A stretch of DNA of 15,825 bases from a bacterium (GTDB lineage Bacteria; Chloroflexota; Dormibacteria; Aeolococcales; Aeolococcaceae), in assembly GCA_021850405.1 (NCBI GenBank), contig JAJZMA010000216.1, positions 4,352-20,176 on the forward strand, given 5' to 3'. Shown here in pieces: positions 3,836 to 15,825 of the stretch. The position numbers were made by a program, and so were the translations under genes. The first letter of the stretch is position 1; every line of letters begins with the position of its first letter. The notes under the pieces are model-generated. The model worked only from the letters and a program-made list of their open reading frames with translations. It searched no databases and was not told the DNA's origin.

Positions 3836-4675
3836 ATGGGCAGGGACAATCGGACAAGCGCGCAAGAAAGGACAGCAGCGCCTGATACCAGGTCAACGCT
3901 TTTGCGTACTGCGGGAGAAGTTCTCGAGGCTCTTGCCTATCTCCCAATTGGTGTGCTGACATTGGCAGGGGCATGTGGTGCTGTTATTGCCGGACTAGTG
4001 ACCCTTACACTCTACCCATTTGCAAAGGCCACCATGCTCGCCCTGGCTGGAGCCCGTCGACTGGCTCCAGGGCCGTCGGCGCGCATCCGCAGCCTGCTGG
4101 ATCATCGTATCCGCCGGCTGGGAGGAATGAGCGTGGGCTCGGCTCTTCTTGTTGGTGCTGGGGTGGCAGCGTTGGCCGGTGCCACAGCACTGACGGGAGG
4201 CATGGCTGCTCTTGGAACGTCTTTCTTCAATGGCGTTCTTGCTGCGTGCGCAGTGGTCACTGTAAGTGGATTTCCCCGGGACGTGTCCCGGGTGGATGGG
4301 TGGGCCCGGGAGATACGGGGGTGGGTTAGAGAGATAAGACGGATCCGTGCTGCCATCAGGCGCGGGGAGGATCCTTTCGAGTCGGTGCAGGCCGCAGAAA
4401 GGCAGTCTGGCCTGGGCCACAAAGTGGCAGGTTACCAGTCAGAACAGCTGGACGCTGCCAGGAAACCAGCTGTTGGAGAGGGGAGCCCTGGTCAGGATTC
4501 GGGGCCTTCCGACCGGTTTGCAGCGTTTCATGAGTGGAAGCAGAACGGTGTCAGGGAAACAGTGATACGTGCTGGAGGCAACACCGCACCCCATGCGCCT
4601 GCACGACTGTCGGGCTCTGCGCCCGCATCTGGAGCCCGGGTGATTCCACGGGAGAATCAGGGCCGGCAGCTCTAG
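3836..4675 (+). CDS. Hypothetical membrane protein, 279 aa
   Basis: I do not recognise the family. The ATG at 3836 has a strong ribosome-binding site (AAGGAG followed by AAGGT). The protein has a charged, polar N-terminus (1-28), hydrophobic stretches at about 34-60, 100-122 and 125-146 that look like two to three membrane helices rich in Gly and Ala, and a basic amphipathic segment around 152-176 with WAREIRGWVREIRRIRAAIRR. The remaining hundred residues are polar and low in hydrophobics, probably disordered and cytoplasmic. There is no signal peptide cleavage site or catalytic motif. It has its own candidate promoter and converges, with a 9-bp gap, on the 90-aa minus-strand gene. It could be a membrane anchor or scaffold, but nothing in the sequence shows a function. 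Confidence 0.7.
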   Translation: MGRDNRTSAQERTAAPDTRSTLLRTAGEVLEALAYLPIGVLTLAGACGAVIAGLVTLTLYPFAKATMLALAGARRLAPGPSARIRSLLDHRIRRLGGMSVGSALLVGAGVAALAGATALTGGMAALGTSFFNGVLAACAVVTVSGFPRDVSRVDGWAREIRGWVREIRRIRAAIRRGEDPFESVQAAERQSGLGHKVAGYQSEQLDAARKPAVGEGSPGQDSGPSDRFAAFHEWKQNGVRETVIRAGGNTAPHAPARLSGSAPASGARVIPRENQGRQL

Positions 4676-4957: not shown

Positions 4958-5418
4958 CAACTGCCTCCTATTACCACAGCTACTGTGGGTGTTGAGTTGG
5001 TTTGCTTGCGCAACACGTTGCACCTGGTACCACATCCCATGGAGCTGTAGCTGACAGCAGTCTGCCAGTTGTCACCTGCGAATGCCATGAGACGGTGATC
5101 CATGAGCATGGCATTAAGAGTAGTCCGATGGCCGTACGCTGACAATGGGTCAGGTAGATGCTACAGGCACAATGGAGGTGCCAGGGGCCGGCCAGGGTTG
5201 CTTTCGGTGAATGCTGCAGACAAGGGCTCCATTCTGAAGTCTTGCACGCATGGGCTTGCTGCGCACCAGGCAGGCAAAGCAATGGTCTGCAGCGTTCTTT
5301 TCTGGTGCTCCAGTTCCAGGTGAGCAGCGGCAGCTCTGGGTCTGGTCTGCCATGTGATAGGCATGGGCTGCCGGAATGGGAGGGAGGGCTGATGCTAACA
5401 TTGGCTCAGTTGCTTCCT
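4958..5418. other. Gene-free stretch with clustered inverted repeats upstream of the 90-aa gene and tRNA-Leu
   Basis: No credible gene is seen in 461 bp. Close to the 90-aa gene there are three dyads: CCACAG/CTGTGG with a 3-nt centre (4974-4988), the perfect palindrome TTGCGCAA (5006-5013), and the overlapping GCAAC/GTTGC (5010-5021). Further on, a 9-bp perfect inverted repeat, AATGCCATG/CATGGCATT, has arms at 5081-5089 and 5107-5115 with a 17-nt loop; CCATGAG occurs twice (5085-5091 and 5100-5106). GGCCGGCC lies at 5186-5193. These could be operator sites or a structured leader. The last 25 bp carry the tRNA promoter candidate. Confidence 0.45.
5393..5401 (+). promoter_or_regulatory. Candidate extended -10 box for tRNA-Leu
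   Basis: TGCTAACAT is an extended -10 form (TGN followed by TAACAT at 5396-5401). A start about 7 nt downstream gives a leader of roughly ten bases before the tRNA 5' end at 5419. There is no clear -35 box, which an extended -10 can tolerate. Confidence 0.4.
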
Positions 5419-5500
5419 GCGCGGGTGGCGGAATTGGTAGACGCGCGGGACTTAGGATCCCGTGGGGCAACCCATCCGAGTTCGATTCTCGGCTCGCGCA
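5419..5500 (+). tRNA. tRNA-Leu, anticodon UAG
   Basis: The full class II cloverleaf is visible. The acceptor GCGCGGG (5419-5425) pairs with CTCGCGC (5493-5499) with one G-U pair, and A5500 is the discriminator. The D-arm stem is GCG/CGC. The anticodon stem CGGGA/TCCCG encloses CTTAGGA, with anticodon TAG at 5453-5455, which reads CUA and other CUN codons. The long variable arm TGGG-GCAA-CCCA and the T arm CCGAG-TTCGATT-CTCGG are present. The long variable arm, the A discriminator and the anticodon together identify leucine. The 3' CCA is not encoded. leuS, which charges this tRNA, lies about 2 kb upstream but is not co-transcribed as far as can be seen. Confidence 0.97.
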
Positions 5501-5597
5501 CGCCGGGCCTACCCTGGTGCCTGGCCATCGCTCCTGTGCTGGTGTCAGTGGGTGCATGAGCAGGGTGGCGCCACTGTAAATTGCGTTATGCTTCCTT

Positions 5598-9353: not shown

Positions 9354-9359
9354 TATACT
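9354..9359 (+). promoter_or_regulatory. Candidate -10 box for valS
   Basis: TATACT (five of six to consensus) lies 11 nt before the GTG at 9371. A start near 9366 would give a leader of only a few bases. No good -35 is visible at 9331-9336. It suggests that valS and the genes after it form a transcription unit separate from tig-clpP-clpX. Confidence 0.35.
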
Positions 9360-9370
9360 TGGGGACACTA

Positions 9371-12004
9371 GTGGAAACTGTTTATTCATCCGCGGCGGCT
9401 GAGGCGCGCTGGCGTGCCAGGTGGGAAGAACTGGCTGTCGGGTTACCCTCCGAGCATGGTGGGCAGCCCTATACGATCGCGCTTCCACCTCCAAATATCA
9501 CCGGCGAGCTGCACTCAGGGCATGCAGTCAGCGGTTCGATCCAGGACACGCTGGTTCGCTATCAGAGGATGAGGGGGCGCACTGTGGAGTGGTGCCCTGG
9601 GACAGACCATGCTGCCCTGGCAACCAATAGTGTTATTGAGCGTCAGCTGCGCGCCGAAGGCACCAGCCGGGAAGAGATAGGTAGAGATGCCTTTGACCAG
9701 CGGGTTAACGAGTGGTACGTGCGGTTTACCGGTCGCATCTATGACCAGATGAAGGGGCTTGGCTTTACCTGTGACTGGAGCCGGGCCCGGTTCACGATGG
9801 ACGAGCCCTACGTAGCTGCCATCCGGGAGGTTTTCAAGCGACTCTATGACGAGGGGCTTATATACCGGGGGCCCAGGATTGTGAACTGGTGTCCGCATTG
9901 CCGCAGCGCTATCAGTGATGAGGAGATTGCATGGCAGGAGCACAGCGATCTGCTCTACCGGATTTCCTATCCTGCAGGAGACAAAGGCGCTGTCGAGGTT
10001 GCCACAGTCCGGCCCGAGACCATGCTGGGGGATACGGCAGTTGCTGTGGCTCCCGGGGATGAGCGGTATGCCCATCTGGTTGGAGTGGAGGTAAAACTTC
10101 CTATTACCGGCAGGCTGGTTCCTGTGATTGCTGACAGTGCGGTTGATATGGGCTTTGGTACTGGTGCACTCAAGGTTACTCCGGCACACTCTCTGGCCGA
10201 TTATGAAATAGGGGAACGCCATCAGCTGCCCCTGATCCAGGTGGTGTCTACTGAGGGTCGTCTCGATGTCCCCAATTTGCCACAGTTCCATGGCCTTACG
10301 GTCGAAGAGGGTCGGGAGAAGGTGGTTGCCGAGCTTATGCGCCTGGGTGCTATTTCCGGGCAGGATGAGTATCAGCACTCAGTTGCGCACTGCGACCGTT
10401 GTGGCACCGTAATAGAGCCGCTCGTAAGTGAGCAGTGGTGGGTGCGCATGACGGAACTGGCCCGGCCCGCTGTAGAGGCAGTGGAGCGTGGCGAGGTGCA
10501 CTTCCACCCCTCCCGGTATGCAGATGTGTATCTTGCCTGGATGGGAAACCTGCGCGACTGGTGTATCAGTCGCCAGATCTGGCTGGGGCATGCCGTACCG
10601 GTTTCCACCTGCAGCAACGGGCACAGGTTTGCGTGGGTCCAGGCGCCTGAGCGTTGTCCTGAATGTGGAGCAGTAGAGCTGCATGCGGACCCGGATGTGC
10701 TGGATACGTGGTTTAGCAGCGCTCTGTGGCCATTCGCCATATTCGGCTGGCCAGCGGATACTCCTGACATGGAGCGATTTTACCCGACCAGCACCCTTGT
10801 GACTGCGCGGGAGATCATTCATCTGTGGGTAGCCAGGATGGTGATGCTGGGTTACCACTTCACCGGCAAGAGCCCATTTGCCGATGTCGTCATCAACAGC
10901 ACCATTCTTGCAGCGGATGGTACGCGCATGAGCAAATCCAAGGGCAATGGGGTCGAACCTCTTGCCATGGTGGAGCGGTACGGGGCTGACGCAGTACGGG
11001 CCTGGGCTGCAGCGGTTGGCACCGCGACCCAGGATGTCCGGTTTGATGAGGAAAAACTTGGTTCTTACCAGCGGTTTGCCAATAAGCTCTGGAACGTTAC
11101 CCGTTTTCTTGTTATGCGTCTGGGAGATGGCGAGCAAATTCCGGAGCAGCCTCTGGTGTCGCAGGCGCAGCTGCTTGCGGAGGACCAGTGGATCCAGGAC
11201 CGTATTGCAGCTTGTGTCGCCTCTGTGACCCGTTCGCTTGATGGGTTTCGTACCCATGAGGCGATGGAGAGGCTGTATGACACGATCTGGCACCTTTTTT
11301 GCGACTGGTATGTTGAGCTGGCGAAGCCCAGGCTGAGCGGGCAGGGAGAGAGCCGGGATGCGGCTGCACACACCCTTGTCAGTGGCTTCCATACCCTGCT
11401 CTGCCTCCTGCACCCATTCATGCCGTTCATAACCGAGGAGTGCGCCCAGAGGCTGCCAGCCACGGGTAAGACCCTGGACTGGGCCCAATGGCCCGCGGTG
11501 CAGGAGGCAGAGGAGACAGGGTCGGCAGTTGCGCGGGCAGTGGATGGGCTTACTGATTTTGTCCAGACCTTGCGGGCGGCGGTCCAGCAGGCTGGGATAG
11601 AAAGGGGTGGGCGGCCCTTCCTCCAGCTGTCAGCTACAGCTGCGGGCCTGGAGCAGGAGGATTGCTGGCGGCTGCTGCTGCTGCTGGCCCCGGTAACACG
11701 GCTTGACACTGAGGAGGACGGAGCGGAGGGGAGGCCGGGGCAGAAGACAGTCCCGGTAGCAGCTGGCGGTTTTCAGGGAGTGTTGTGGCTCCCGGTGAGC
11801 GACCAGGCGCAGCGCGAGCGCAACAGCAGGTTGCTCAAAGAGGTAACTGCCAGGCTGGAGCGCGTCACATCGCAGCTGGATTCTGCAGCCTTTGTGTCCC
11901 GGGCGCGGCCTGAAGTAGTAGAGCGCGCGCGACAGCAGCGCGATGAGCTTGCCTCCCAGCGCGCTGAATTAGAGGCCTCCCTGGCGGTGACTGCAGATGA
12001 ATGA
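9371..12004 (+). CDS. valS: Valyl-tRNA synthetase
   Basis: This enzyme charges tRNA-Val and is class I with a CP1 editing domain. It is 877 aa from the GTG at 9371, chosen because GGGGA lies 5 nt before it; a TTG at 9359 in the same frame overlaps the candidate -10 box and is less likely. Marks in order are PPPNITGELHSGH (HIGH-type site H48-S-G-H51), PGTDHAALATNSVIERQL, the zinc knuckle NWCPHC, the editing motif ATVRPETMLGDTAVAV, DWCISRQIWLGH, a second Cys pair (CPEC), RMSKS (519-523), the tRNA-binding helical domain, and a C-terminal coiled coil (about 820-877, charged heptads such as RARQQRDELASQRAELEASL). The HSGH and HAALATN variants are unusual but keep the catalytic residues. It heads the operon leading into the membrane proteins. 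Confidence 0.96.
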   Translation: METVYSSAAAEARWRARWEELAVGLPSEHGGQPYTIALPPPNITGELHSGHAVSGSIQDTLVRYQRMRGRTVEWCPGTDHAALATNSVIERQLRAEGTSREEIGRDAFDQRVNEWYVRFTGRIYDQMKGLGFTCDWSRARFTMDEPYVAAIREVFKRLYDEGLIYRGPRIVNWCPHCRSAISDEEIAWQEHSDLLYRISYPAGDKGAVEVATVRPETMLGDTAVAVAPGDERYAHLVGVEVKLPITGRLVPVIADSAVDMGFGTGALKVTPAHSLADYEIGERHQLPLIQVVSTEGRLDVPNLPQFHGLTVEEGREKVVAELMRLGAISGQDEYQHSVAHCDRCGTVIEPLVSEQWWVRMTELARPAVEAVERGEVHFHPSRYADVYLAWMGNLRDWCISRQIWLGHAVPVSTCSNGHRFAWVQAPERCPECGAVELHADPDVLDTWFSSALWPFAIFGWPADTPDMERFYPTSTLVTAREIIHLWVARMVMLGYHFTGKSPFADVVINSTILAADGTRMSKSKGNGVEPLAMVERYGADAVRAWAAAVGTATQDVRFDEEKLGSYQRFANKLWNVTRFLVMRLGDGEQIPEQPLVSQAQLLAEDQWIQDRIAACVASVTRSLDGFRTHEAMERLYDTIWHLFCDWYVELAKPRLSGQGESRDAAAHTLVSGFHTLLCLLHPFMPFITEECAQRLPATGKTLDWAQWPAVQEAEETGSAVARAVDGLTDFVQTLRAAVQQAGIERGGRPFLQLSATAAGLEQEDCWRLLLLLAPVTRLDTEEDGAEGRPGQKTVPVAAGGFQGVLWLPVSDQAQRERNSRLLKEVTARLERVTSQLDSAAFVSRARPEVVERARQQRDELASQRAELEASLAVTADE

Positions 12005-12069
12005 ACGACTCCTCGCCACCCGGGCGGCACAGCCTGCGACTGACCCTTTGCGGTAGCGAAGAGGAGTGA
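12001..12069 (+). CDS. Possible 22-aa coupling ORF between valS and the membrane operon
   Basis: ATG at 12001 overlaps the valS stop as ATGA. The frame runs 22 codons (MNDSSPPGRH at the start, CGSEEE at the end) and its TGA at 12067 overlaps the GTG start of the next gene as GTGA. Two 4-nt overlaps in a row suggest a ribosome relay, which would help because the next GTG has GAGG only 1 nt before it. The peptide has no recognisable family and a weak GGTGA about 10 nt before its start. It may be chance; a second tiny frame (ATG at 11997, 19 codons) also exists here. Confidence 0.35.
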   Translation: MNDSSPPGRHSLRLTLCGSEEE

Positions 12070-13781
12070 GCGCTGGATCCATTCTGGCAGTTTTTTTTGC
12101 AGGCGCTGTTCTGGTGGGAACTCTCGGCATCATACGTCCCAGGGTGCTTGCGTCGAACCTTGCAGTTTCGGTGGCGGGTACCGGCATCTCCCTGGCATTC
12201 TTTGCCATGCTGGCGGTGCTGGCCTGGTTGCTCCTGCCCTCTGGCGGAGGGGTTGTTACTCTGGGAACCTTCTACACCGGTGCCTTTATTGCTCTGCATG
12301 TTCAGTCTGGGGCGGTATGGGTTGGTCTTATAGCGATTGCAGTTATGGCTGCAGGATTCTGGCTTCCGGCAAACAGGAGTACGGTCGACAGAGGCGAGCC
12401 TGGGGCACGAGGCTGGGATCGGGCTACAGGACTTGCTGCAGTGGCGCTGGCCTCGGTTGCCGGGAATCTGGTCACAATGTTCCCGGCGGTAGCACTGGCT
12501 GCTTATAGCGCACACCGGGAGCTGACAAGCCAGGATCAACGATTTTCTCTAAGGGCTCACATGGCGCGTGTGGTGACAGTGGTGGGGGCGGTGCTCCTCC
12601 TTTCCAGTACGGTCGAGTTGTACGTGCAACATGGCACGAGCAACTTTGCGGCCATCCCGGTGGGCGCTGCCACCAGCGGTATTGCCATCCCGTGGCTTCT
12701 TGCAGCCCTCTTCCTGCTGGTTGCCCCGGTGGTTTCTGTGTCGGCGGGTGGGCCAGTGGCGCGGTGGAGCTGGCTAACCTTGCCTTCAGTGGGCCTGCTG
12801 CTGCTGAATGCCCTCGTGGTCACTGAAGGGGCAGCCTTGCCTGCAGACGTATCCCTGCCTGCTGCCCTCTGTGGAGGGGCTTTATTGCTGCTGTGGCTAT
12901 GGCTCGGCACCTGTACCAGGTGGATCCGCTATCGTATTCCACTGCTTTACCTTGCTCTGCTTGGCCTTGCAACTGTCGATTTTGCTGTGGGGAGCCAGTC
13001 TGCCTGGGGAGTGCTTGCCATAGTTCTTTGTCTTCTCTTTTTTGTTGCGATTTTCTTTTTCTTTCTTGGAGCAGTTCTGGGCACCGAGCGCAAGCCAGCG
13101 ACAGGGGCACTTCTCTGTGCCTGCGTCGTGGTGGGCTGTGGTTTCCTGTGTGGAATGCTCTCGATGAGTGTTCTGGCAGGATGGTCAGTCTGGGCTGCGC
13201 CAGCAGTGGCGCTTGTCCTTGGCACCACTTCTGTTCTGATTTATCGCGCTACCTCTGACCTCTCGATCCAGCTGCCACTGCACCTTCGAGGTGGCGTGAC
13301 AGCACCCAAGCTGGCTGCTGCGCTGTTGCTGCTTTGCCTTTCGCTTATTCCCTTGCTTTTTCCTGCCCTCCTGGCCGGGACGGCGTGGCAGCTTATGTCA
13401 TTTGGCACAGCCCCATCGCAGGTGACACCACAGGCACTGGTGGCGGTTGGCGGAGGATGGGCAGGTGCATATGTGTTTGCGGCTGCAATACTGTTATGGG
13501 TTGGGGGCAGTGCTGGCTTGATTGCCCTTTTCTCTGGTGCTCCACAGGATGCAAAGCTGGCTACACCACCTGTGTCCCATCGGGCACAGGGGCCGATTGG
13601 TGCCTCCAGCGTTTCAGACGCCTCATCACGAAAATGGGCCCTCCGCTACCTGTTTTTTGCGCGCAGGCAGATACGCCGCTTTGGCAAACAGGCCGATGCT
13701 CTGGAAGTGTTCCTGGTAGATCAGCCACGCCTTGCTGCCGTTGTGCTAGGAAGCATTGCCTGCCTGCTGCTATTTCATTGA
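12066..13781 (+). CDS. Multi-pass membrane protein, divergent NuoL/HyfB-like (tentative)
   Basis: 571 aa, almost entirely hydrophobic with about 14 likely membrane helices. Faint complex-I antiporter features can be followed: VAGNLVTMF (131-139) where NuoL-type subunits have the TM5 segment ending in WE; WLLAALFLLVAPVVSVSAGGPVARWSWL (210-237 region) like the TM7 segment; RWIRYRIPLLYLALLG (285-300) like the DIKR-AYSS region. The C-terminus has a basic stretch (521-542, KWALRYLFFARRQIRRFGK) before a last helix. The TM5 Glu and TM7 Lys that drive proton transfer are not seen in the matching places. GTG start at 12066; its GAGG is only 1 nt away, so translation probably depends on coupling. E. 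coli NuoL and HyfB are longer (over 600 aa). The membrane character is certain; the family is tentative. Confidence 0.5.
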   Translation: MSAGSILAVFFAGAVLVGTLGIIRPRVLASNLAVSVAGTGISLAFFAMLAVLAWLLLPSGGGVVTLGTFYTGAFIALHVQSGAVWVGLIAIAVMAAGFWLPANRSTVDRGEPGARGWDRATGLAAVALASVAGNLVTMFPAVALAAYSAHRELTSQDQRFSLRAHMARVVTVVGAVLLLSSTVELYVQHGTSNFAAIPVGAATSGIAIPWLLAALFLLVAPVVSVSAGGPVARWSWLTLPSVGLLLLNALVVTEGAALPADVSLPAALCGGALLLLWLWLGTCTRWIRYRIPLLYLALLGLATVDFAVGSQSAWGVLAIVLCLLFFVAIFFFFLGAVLGTERKPATGALLCACVVVGCGFLCGMLSMSVLAGWSVWAAPAVALVLGTTSVLIYRATSDLSIQLPLHLRGGVTAPKLAAALLLLCLSLIPLLFPALLAGTAWQLMSFGTAPSQVTPQALVAVGGGWAGAYVFAAAILLWVGGSAGLIALFSGAPQDAKLATPPVSHRAQGPIGASSVSDASSRKWALRYLFFARRQIRRFGKQADALEVFLVDQPRLAAVVLGSIACLLLFH

Positions 13782-13792
13782 GATGAGTTGAT

Positions 13793-14452
13793 ATGAGTGG
13801 AACGTTTCTTGGTTTTGTGGCATTTGTCGCAGGAGTTGCACTCGCCCTTGTGGATGGGCGCAGGGGGATTGTATGGGCTGCTGCGGTTTCTGCTCTGGCA
13901 CTTGTGCTGCCCGTATTCCAGATAGCTGCCAGCGAGGGCGCTCTCCTCATTCTTGCGACAGCTGCAGCGGTAGGGCTCTTTTGGTATGCCAGCAGAGTGG
14001 CAGGAAGATACTGGCCCCAGATGGGTCCAGATCCCACTATCTCGCTCGGTGTCTCCAAGGGATCCCTTTTTGGTCCCCGTAGTGTCCGGGCGGTGTCTTC
14101 TGTGGTCTCCCTTATTGCCGCGTCGTGGATAAGTCTTAACATTCCGGTGGCCGGGAGTGGTTATGGGAGTGGGGTATTGTTCGCCGTCAGCTACGTGACT
14201 ATCGTGGCTGGATTTCGCATTCTCCTTGCCCACAGTGTTGAGGATCTTGCCATTGGGTGTACCGGGGTTTCTCTTGCCTGTGCAGCCACTGTCCTTCTGG
14301 AAGGCGGAGCCGCTGCAACCGCAGCCGCAGGGAGTGTTGGGTGCCTGGCTCCTGTTGCAGCCATTGTTGTGGGGTGGATGTCAGGACGGAGTGACCGGTC
14401 TGATAGCAGGAGGGGTACAGAACCCGCTGATTCCGGACGGGCGACCGCATGA
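13793..14452 (+). CDS. HyfE-like membrane subunit (tentative)
   Basis: 219 aa, close to the 216 aa of E. coli HyfE, a membrane subunit of hydrogenase-4 with a NuoK-like C-terminal part. Helices are visible at about 5-20, 27-45, 50-66, 100-116, 126-145, 150-170 and 180-196. The stretch YVTIVAGFRILLAHSVEDLAIG (134-155) followed by a hydrophobic helix looks like the HyfE/NuoK pattern of a Gly-rich helix, a short polar loop and another helix. The last 20 residues are polar. The ATG at 13793 lies 11 bp after the preceding gene with only a weak GAGATGAG-type site. The stop overlaps the next ATG as ATGA. The call rests on size, hydropathy and neighbours more than on identity. Confidence 0.45.
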   Translation: MSGTFLGFVAFVAGVALALVDGRRGIVWAAAVSALALVLPVFQIAASEGALLILATAAAVGLFWYASRVAGRYWPQMGPDPTISLGVSKGSLFGPRSVRAVSSVVSLIAASWISLNIPVAGSGYGSGVLFAVSYVTIVAGFRILLAHSVEDLAIGCTGVSLACAATVLLEGGAAATAAAGSVGCLAPVAAIVVGWMSGRSDRSDSRRGTEPADSGRATA

Positions 14453-15702
14453 ACACATATACGCTAATGGCGCTCTGTATAGGGAGCGGAGCCGTGGTGT
14501 ACGGCTGGTGTCTCCTGTTCTCACGTCCACGTTTTGGTTTTGTGGCACCATGGGCAGCTGCAGCAGGGACTCTTCTGGTGCACCACGCGCCTGCGTTGGG
14601 GGCATTTGCGGATGCAGGTGCGCCTCTCTCCATGGGGATCGATCCCGCCGCCCAGTTTGTCATCATACTTGCCTGCTTTTCTATCGGTTGCGCCATGCTG
14701 CTCTCGCCAGGGGCCTCGCCTGGAGACATCTGGGCAGCGGCTGCGGTTGGGGCCGCCGCGACAGCTGCCCTTGCAGCGCGCCAGCCTGTTCCCTGGGCAG
14801 TAAGCATTGCTTTCTGTTCTGGAGCAGTTGGGCTTCGCTGGATCTCTGGCAGGCCAAGTCGTGCAGCTCTTGGCGCAGGAAGGATGCTCGGTGTTGGTAC
14901 AACGTGTCTTCTTCTTTCAGTTGCACTGTACCCCGCCTCTGGACCCGGGATTGGGCCCCTGGCTTCTCTGGAGGGAGGACTGCTCGCGGCTGCAACGGTT
15001 TCCCTGCTCGCGCTGGCGCCTCTGGGAGCCTGGGCTGCTGTTGGGTGCGTCCAGGAAAGCCCTGTTAACGCTGTGCTCTGGATTGCTGCTGTTGTCCCCG
15101 TCACACTGCTCACGGTTGTCAGGTTGCAGTTTCACATGAAGATTGGGACACTCGTACCCTACTTTGATGTGCCGCTGGTGCTTGGATTGGGAACGGCCCT
15201 CTTTCAGGGTGTTGGGGCACTGCGGGTTTCTGGCAATCGCCGCTATGTCAGGGTGCTGCTCGCAGACATAGGTCTTGCCGCAGCCGGGTTCGGTACTTCG
15301 CATTGGCAGGGTGCAGTGGGTGGTGTCATTCTGCTTGCCGCGCAGGCTACTGTAGCGCCCATCCTTCTTCAGGTGCCGGGCACCATCCCGGCAAGACTGG
15401 TGCAGCTTGCAGAGGTCTCCCTTTCAGGCATTCCTCCCAGCCTCAGCTTTTGGGGTCGATTCCTGATATTGCAGAGTTTGGCACTTGCCAACGTGGGTGC
15501 ACTGGATGCTGGAATTGCGGTTGTGGCAATGCTCCTCCTGGCTACCCTCACTCCGCTTGTCCCTATCCGCAGCGCGTCTGCGTCGTCCCAGCCTGGTCAT
15601 CGCCTGTCGTGGAGAACATCGGGGGCTGTCCTGGCACTCATTGGGGCATATTCCTGGGGACTGCTTCCCCAGCTTCTGTTAGTGCCGCTGGGTCACATCT
15701 AG
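14449..15702 (+). CDS. NuoN/HyfF-like antiporter-family membrane subunit (divergent)
   Basis: 417 aa, multi-pass, the best-supported member of the membrane cluster. Family-like segments are MGIDPAAQFVIILACFSIG (62-80), PVNAVLWIAAVVPVTLLTVVRL (205-226, like PVSALLHG to the TM8 R), GNRRYVRVLLADIGLAAAG (262-280, where relatives have D-K-R then AYSS-HMG), and LSGIPPSLSFWGRF (325-338), matching the LSLAGIPP-GF-GKF motif. In this last motif the usual TM12 Lys is Arg337. The TM5 Glu and TM7 Lys are not recognisable, and the usual WLP-DAH loop is missing. In relatives these charges carry proton pumping, so this protein may not pump or may do so differently. The start ATG overlaps the preceding stop as ATGA. 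Confidence 0.55.
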   Translation: MNTYTLMALCIGSGAVVYGWCLLFSRPRFGFVAPWAAAAGTLLVHHAPALGAFADAGAPLSMGIDPAAQFVIILACFSIGCAMLLSPGASPGDIWAAAAVGAAATAALAARQPVPWAVSIAFCSGAVGLRWISGRPSRAALGAGRMLGVGTTCLLLSVALYPASGPGIGPLASLEGGLLAAATVSLLALAPLGAWAAVGCVQESPVNAVLWIAAVVPVTLLTVVRLQFHMKIGTLVPYFDVPLVLGLGTALFQGVGALRVSGNRRYVRVLLADIGLAAAGFGTSHWQGAVGGVILLAAQATVAPILLQVPGTIPARLVQLAEVSLSGIPPSLSFWGRFLILQSLALANVGALDAGIAVVAMLLLATLTPLVPIRSASASSQPGHRLSWRTSGAVLALIGAYSWGLLPQLLLVPLGHI

Positions 15703-15706
15703 CGCC

Positions 15707-15825
15707 ATGGACATTGTGAGTCTCCTTGCATCTGCAGTGGCGCTGTTGATCTACCCGGGTGGAATCTTCTTTGTTGTGCTGCTGGTGCTGGTCACAGGAG
15801 GAACGCAAGGAGGGGTAGCAGCCCT
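15707..15825 (+). CDS. Start of a membrane protein, perhaps NuoH/HyfC-like, cut by window edge
   Basis: The ATG at 15707 is 4 bp after the preceding stop, and the frame stays open for 39 codons to the edge. The peptide begins MDIVSLLASAVALLIYPGG and continues as one strongly hydrophobic helix (about 5-29), then TGGTQGGVAA. The PGG inside the first helix recalls subunit-1 (NuoH-like) proteins of hydrogenase-related complexes, where the helix is followed by a charged stretch with RK and a Gln-Arg-Gly-Pro motif; that charged stretch is not present in the part visible. There is no clear ribosome-binding site, so coupling is likely. A membrane protein is near certain; the family is a weak guess from operon position. 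Confidence 0.4.
   Translation, partial: MDIVSLLASAVALLIYPGGIFFVVLLVLVTGGTQGGVAA

Follow-up and report, generated by a model that had tools for sequence, protein, structure and literature searches.

A lysine-poor, complex-I-type membrane module without adjacent redox genes in one candidate order of soil bacteria

What is left of a complex-I-type membrane arm when neither redox partners nor pumping residues accompany it? This question is raised by four consecutive genes, here called A to D, at the right-hand end of a 15,825-nucleotide stretch (the window) of contig JAJZMA010000216.1, from a bacterium of the Chloroflexota order Aeolococcales. An initial annotation described them as coupled genes for very hydrophobic subunits of complex I or of a group-4 hydrogenase, with the key pumping residues gone. 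The open reading frames (ORFs) of A to C and the start of D were confirmed with the proposed sizes, B and C overlapping by 4 base pairs (bp) and C and D lying 4 bp apart, and the genes are kept together in relatives. Our preferred reading, to which we give a probability of roughly 55%, is that A to D form a membrane module of the complex-I type that lacks its own redox arm and has been kept as a non-pumping complex.

The homology of A and C to complex I is remote. Pfam gave no family at E values up to 1 for A, B or C of the window, including Proton_antipo_M (PF00361), and no match for A, C or D of one relative (locus L059). NCBIfam gave only sub-threshold matches, and among A to C only for C, the best being NuoN at 0.0046. 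The lack of Pfam matches would fit an unrelated transporter fold that resembles complex I by chance; however, the profile matches of A and C exceed those of controls, with HyfB as the best canonical match of A and HyfF as that of C, and the predicted fold of D (see below) is not that of an unrelated transporter, so that we hold a chance resemblance to be very improbable. The kinship with complex I proposed at the outset is upheld. C can be aligned to NuoN over 358 columns and a relative's A to NuoL over 187, and C also matches MrpD (E 1.4e-4). The best matches overall are subunits of a second, orphan cluster discussed below, M for A (E 2.5e-8) and N for C (E 1.5e-9), which hints that A and C may share an origin with them.

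In PMC7419157, the key antiporter residues are given as a glutamate on transmembrane helix 5 (TM5) and lysines on TM7, TM8 and TM12, the TM7 and TM12 lysines being described as absolutely conserved and essential. When C of the window is aligned to NuoN and read by eye, Ala121 replaces the TM5 glutamate and Leu186 the TM7 lysine; in all 30 rows of C, the TM8 position is Pro217 and the TM12 position is Arg337, the latter as first described. The TM7, TM8 and TM12 lysines are absent from A as well, where a relative has leucine at the TM12 position. The corresponding Escherichia coli positions are, we presume, E133, K217, K247 and K395 in NuoN and E144, K229, H254 and K399 in NuoL, of which residue type alone was confirmed in the sequence.

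The TM5 glutamate of A had also been listed as lost, and here the initial annotation does not hold for the family. Aligned to NuoL by eye, the window's A has Ala143 at this position, but the A family has glutamate in 19 of 31 rows and glutamine in 6 of 31; judged from the alignment, the alanine is a feature of the window's lineage and not of the A family. Moreover, since the canonical NuoL of eight out of eight relatives in the order (L162-L169) has alanine at the column of E. coli NuoL Glu144, the absence of this glutamate from A is no telling loss. The claim of missing residues in A and C thus stands for the TM7 lysine, and extends to TM8. Several charges kept elsewhere in the family are gone from A of the window, and none of its five lysines comes before residue 343. 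Arg217 of A was considered as an equivalent of the TM7 lysine and rejected, as in the NuoN alignment, read by eye, the lysine column lies some eight residues further downstream.

The scarcity of lysine is not confined to these positions. No lysine at all is found in 23 of 31 A rows, 24 of 30 B rows, 21 of 30 C rows and 32 of 43 D rows, compared with 0 of 27 rows of canonical NuoL, NuoM, NuoN and NuoH from the order (range 5-16 lysines), 0 of 12 of HyfB and HyfF (range 3-7) and 0 of 19 of orphan L, M and N (range 1-5). For each canonical subunit, 3-8 rows from the order were compared, together with E. coli. Duplicates and rows more than 90% identical were collapsed (A from 38 to 31, B from 37 to 30, C from 39 to 30, D from 49 to 43), and several rows were dropped: for A, L055, L058 and L060 in a first set and L055, L058, L078, L091, L092 and L196 in a larger one; for B, L055 in the first and also L088, L092 and L096 in the larger; for C, L086 in the larger; and for D, L057 in the first and also L089, L200 and L205 in the larger. 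Only one of the 33 lysines of A and C lies in a 19-residue segment of mean hydropathy above 1.2, a filter that would miss a place like Arg337 (column average 0.92). Coding rich in guanine and cytosine favours arginine over lysine, yet the order's canonical subunits retain their lysines despite this bias. Because most members of the module contain no lysine, a lysine relay at shifted positions, which the initial annotation had left as a possibility, is excluded for most of them.

D was examined in relatives, since the window's contig ends within the gene; the stub itself is found by the D family profile (E 3.0e-5). Predicted structures were made for B and D only. The modelled D of a relative matches NuoH-type chains, with formate hydrogenlyase (FHL) chain D as the top Foldseek hit, and a NuoH-type fold is thus predicted with good confidence, in line with what had been proposed from the stub. 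Sequence comparison did not connect D to NuoH (E 0.42 with a 45-row NuoH/HyfC profile, 0.14 with NuoH alone), and no PF00146 match fell at the place of D among the matches listed for 41 genomes. D differs from NuoH in being shorter, full-length relatives having about 240 residues (some 80-110 fewer), and in lacking its widely conserved acidic residues: columns with 90% or more acidic residues number 0 in 43 D rows, 12 in 6 NuoH rows and 9 in 9 HyfC rows, as counted over the whole alignment and not mapped to quinone-side loops.

The carriers of A to D are soil bacteria of one candidate order. The C protein was found in 26 of 41 genomes, counting that of the window. A scan of 301 genomes from the phylum with the C profile gave 151 matching genomes at a threshold of E 1e-3. 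All 16 from the window's order scored 6.7e-68 or better and every other genome 9.9e-10 or worse, the matches outside the order, among the rows listed, being mostly to the stretch 315-413 of longer NuoN/M-like frames. B was found in 46 of 50 genomes of the order versus 0 of 60 other genomes of the class, and D likewise in 46 of 50; of the four genomes without D, one (G004) has a contig that ends just after C, while G020, G021 and G040 are 58, 68 and 75% complete. In 20 relative loci (L045-L064) fetched through the C match, B always adjoins C, although in L055 a contig end cuts it and leaves no A. A and D are each present in 19 loci; the missing D is that of L046, whose contig stops after C, and the D of L057 is truncated.

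The gene order in these loci is valS - A - B - C - D - maf - DUF11 lipoprotein - L21 - L27 - obgE - nadD - rsfS. It rests on Pfam in L059 (the zinc-ribbon gene described below, and maf to rsfS except L27), on Pfam for maf and nadD in L053 and for valS in the window, and on L27 read by eye in L062; in the remaining loci it was judged from gene sizes. valS, which was correctly placed upstream from the start, is the constant upstream neighbour in the relatives examined. The genes downstream in relatives (maf, L21, L27 and obgE) are unrelated to complex I, an outcome that the initial annotation would have counted against its reading, but the module itself stands. Ratios of non-synonymous to synonymous substitution (dN/dS) for 49 within-genus pairs over the four genes were 0.05-0.44, with 40 of 49 at 0.13-0.22. 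These genera exclude the window's own, which has one genome; the ratios stand without a valS control, for which no value was obtained in any pair, and one genus is near synonymous saturation (dS 1.3-1.6). A to D are under purifying selection in the genera tested. Such ratios argue against a decaying remnant of a second complex I, as does the occurrence of the module in nearly every genome of the order with frames otherwise open. Decay would fit the many charges lost from the window's A, the internal TGA in one D match and three B matches among the matches listed, and the likeness of orphan J-N to a stripped form of an intact second complex I in one genome (G007, below); we nevertheless give it very little credence.

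No redox subunit is seen among the window's ORFs read by eye, in agreement with the initial annotation, and a family search found no peripheral-arm or redox subunit between A and rsfS in L059, although unlinked partners may exist. Hydrogenase-like large or small subunits are likewise absent from the cluster (window ORFs by eye, L059 by family search), and DabA, the partner in the DAB inorganic carbon transporter, is not among the named L059 neighbours, though no search was aimed at it. A separate canonical set, for which the initial annotation had proposed to check, does exist in the same genome, with 49-kDa, NuoH and antiporter genes elsewhere. Matches to PF00346 and to PF00146 were each found in 38 of 41 genomes, some of them hydrogenase-like only (G039), and this would fit A to D docking as an extra membrane piece on canonical complex I, a group-4 hydrogenase or an unlinked redox partner. 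Such docking seems unlikely to us, as the acidic residues conserved in NuoH are missing from D and one genome that is 91% complete (G013) carries the module and an orphan-type L but matches neither PF00346 nor PF00146, an absence that a missing contig would account for.

B was first described as HyfE-like, and this assignment was not supported. HHalign gave E values of 0.48 and 0.51, at the level of controls (with only four HyfE rows), and a fold search with the B model (predicted local distance difference test score 87.4) gave no meaningful match, including to the HyfE, NuoK or NuoJ fold; no known relative of B was found by sequence or fold. Its conserved residues are R96 (29 of 30 rows), R99 and R142 (30 of 30 each) and position 151 (aspartate in 27 and glutamate in 3 of 30). 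These arginine and aspartate residues of B, the TM5 glutamate of A (19 of 31 rows) and Arg337 of C could form a different polar path by which A to D still conduct ions; the module would then be a leak channel, exchange Na+ for H+ or carry some other solute. Asp273 of C is, like Arg337, kept in all 30 rows. Arginine is a poor proton shuttle, however, and takes the place of the TM12 lysine in C, while the window's A lacks the TM5 glutamate. PMC7419157 places the MrpA TM5 glutamate near the MrpD TM12 lysine, at a coupling point which a pair of A glutamate and C arginine would fit; yet the TM7 and TM12 lysines, essential according to the same source, are absent or changed here. We therefore regard conduction by such a path as rather unlikely.

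The second cluster, X (about 138 residues)-J-K-L-M-N, adjoins mnmA in the order (mnmA by Pfam in L209 and L016). In the window's own genome it is split over two contigs, with only M recognised by profile and the rest assigned by position and alignment. Elsewhere (L206 and L208-L213) canonical profiles recognise L, M or N, as well as K in L206, L209, L210, L211 and L213 and J in L206; orphan J matches NuoJ at 1.6e-8 and orphan K matches NuoK at 2.9e-18. X occurs in 30 of 50 genomes of the order, all of the window's family, and an orphan-type L lies off the canonical nuo contig in 47 of 50 (table read by eye, most neighbourhoods unread). The orphan-cluster contigs gave no PF00346 or PF00146 match, other redox genes not having been searched there. 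Orphan M has neither the TM7 nor the TM8 lysine (0 of 5 each), orphan N has arginine at TM12 in 5 of 7 and lysine at TM7 in 1 of 7, and orphan L has arginine at TM7 in 6 of 8 and lysine in none.

G007 carries at the same site (ThiS - NIL - mnmA; X) a second complex I with NuoA, B, C, D and H (by Pfam), J to N, and a frame that by eye resembles NuoI and contains two CxxCxxCxxxC motifs; none of the key residues in its L, M and N has been lost, and the site also has an NDH-2-like gene. With the orphan-L profile, the second-cluster L of G007 reaches 655 bits, versus 210 for the canonical copy. Residues in G010 are intermediate (E T Q L in L, E K G K in N), and intact, partly stripped and more fully stripped second clusters thus coexist in one family. 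Judging from these two genomes, a second complex I is the most likely ancestor of the stripped cluster, and the G007 form is a possible evolutionary intermediate. The products of A to D would probably assemble with the orphan J-K-L-M-N products of the same genomes. More tentatively, and in our opinion against the odds, the two operons may build one large redox-less arm (D, C, B, A plus X, J, K, L, M, N) with a structural or signalling role, derived from a second complex I that would have discarded its peripheral arm first and had its proton relay erased afterwards.

How, then, does the module compare with known systems? It shares with the complex I membrane arm the match of D to NuoH-type chains and the alignment of C to NuoN and of A to NuoL, and it differs in having no adjacent peripheral-arm genes, an extra subunit B, no TM7 or TM8 lysine, and arginine for the TM12 lysine in C. 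With the Mrp Na+/H+ antiporter, which is not known to have a NuoH-type subunit, it shares a redox-free set of antiporter-like subunits and the MrpD match of C. Mrp keeps the key lysine and glutamate residues (PMC7419157), which A to D mostly do not. The group-4 [NiFe] hydrogenases and Ehr complexes (Hyf, FHL, Mbh, Mbx) provide the top canonical matches of A and C and the top hit of D; Ehr complexes, according to PMC6349859, have lost metal-binding residues and kept hydrogenase-like subunits, whereas none was found beside A to D. The orphan X-J-N cluster has also mostly lost the lysine relay and has no 49-kDa or NuoH match on its contigs, but its L, M and N are profile-recognised in most loci, it has no NuoH and it lies at another locus. 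We found no paper on such a module among the titles and abstract beginnings listed from the open-licence literature.

The replaced TM7, TM8 and TM12 lysines of A and C, the lysine-free state of most members and the missing NuoH acidic residues of D argue that the module would be unable to pump protons by the known lysine relay and would be unlikely to receive redox energy. We thus favour a non-pumping complex in which D would be a trimmed NuoH-like, C a NuoN/HyfF-like, A a NuoL/M/HyfB-like and B an added membrane subunit, and which may act as a scaffold, a regulator or a passive conduit.

The right-hand end of the window coincides with that of its contig, and the genome, of 1.46 Mb, is 65% complete; valS lies 61 bp before A, and the upstream ORFs were assigned by family search to trigger factor, ClpX, and LeuRS- and ValRS-type synthetases. 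A 155-residue protein separates valS from A in 16 of the 20 relative loci (L045-L064); this zinc-ribbon protein is absent from the window, and none was seen in loci from the second family. In two loci A and B appear in one open frame because the reading frame shifts close to where A ends, next to an ambiguous base. This is probably an assembly error; the joint frame was rejected as a fused protein for folding because of the ambiguous residue inside it and because the end of A reads in another frame. Locations are collected in Table 1.

Table 1. Locations of the module and of other features mentioned in the text (window positions unless a locus is given)
Feature	Location	Strand	Description
Gene A	12066..13781	+	571 aa, antiporter-like subunit, NuoL/NuoM/HyfB type
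Gene B	13793..14452	+	219 aa, all-helical membrane protein
Gene C	14449..15702	+	417 aa, NuoN/HyfF-like
Gene D	15707..15823	+	open start, first 39 aa (...LLIYPGGIFF...), cut by contig end
valS	9359..12004	+	class I synthetase with valyl tRNA-binding arm (Pfam); context, outside module
Protein	3836-4675		279 aa, no Pfam match
tRNA-Leu gene	5419-5501		
ORF	5158-5559		overlaps tRNA-Leu gene; probably spurious
Zinc-ribbon protein	L059:6083-6547		about 155 aa, membrane protein with double zinc ribbon (L059); also in relatives (window's family)
A+B frame	L058:6505-8907; L091:8243-10630		one open frame
X-J-K-L-M-N, window's genome	L016:1-5362; L017:2-1315		split over two contigs
Second complex I, G007	L216:398-10431; L207:6277-14034		

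The module has been missed by automatic annotation, for it has no Pfam match. Protein database searches with C (about 8000 candidates scored) returned three proteins each, the window's own included, and the same kind of search with D returned 21 relatives, of which the six that carry a source name are all called "hypothetical protein". Relatives of complex I are thought to keep the antiporter fold for moving ions, and yet nearly every genome of this order keeps such proteins, a NuoH-type subunit included, without adjacent redox genes and mostly without a single lysine. They may offer a natural loss-of-function series for a non-pumping role of the antiporter fold and for the evolutionary dismantling of complex I.
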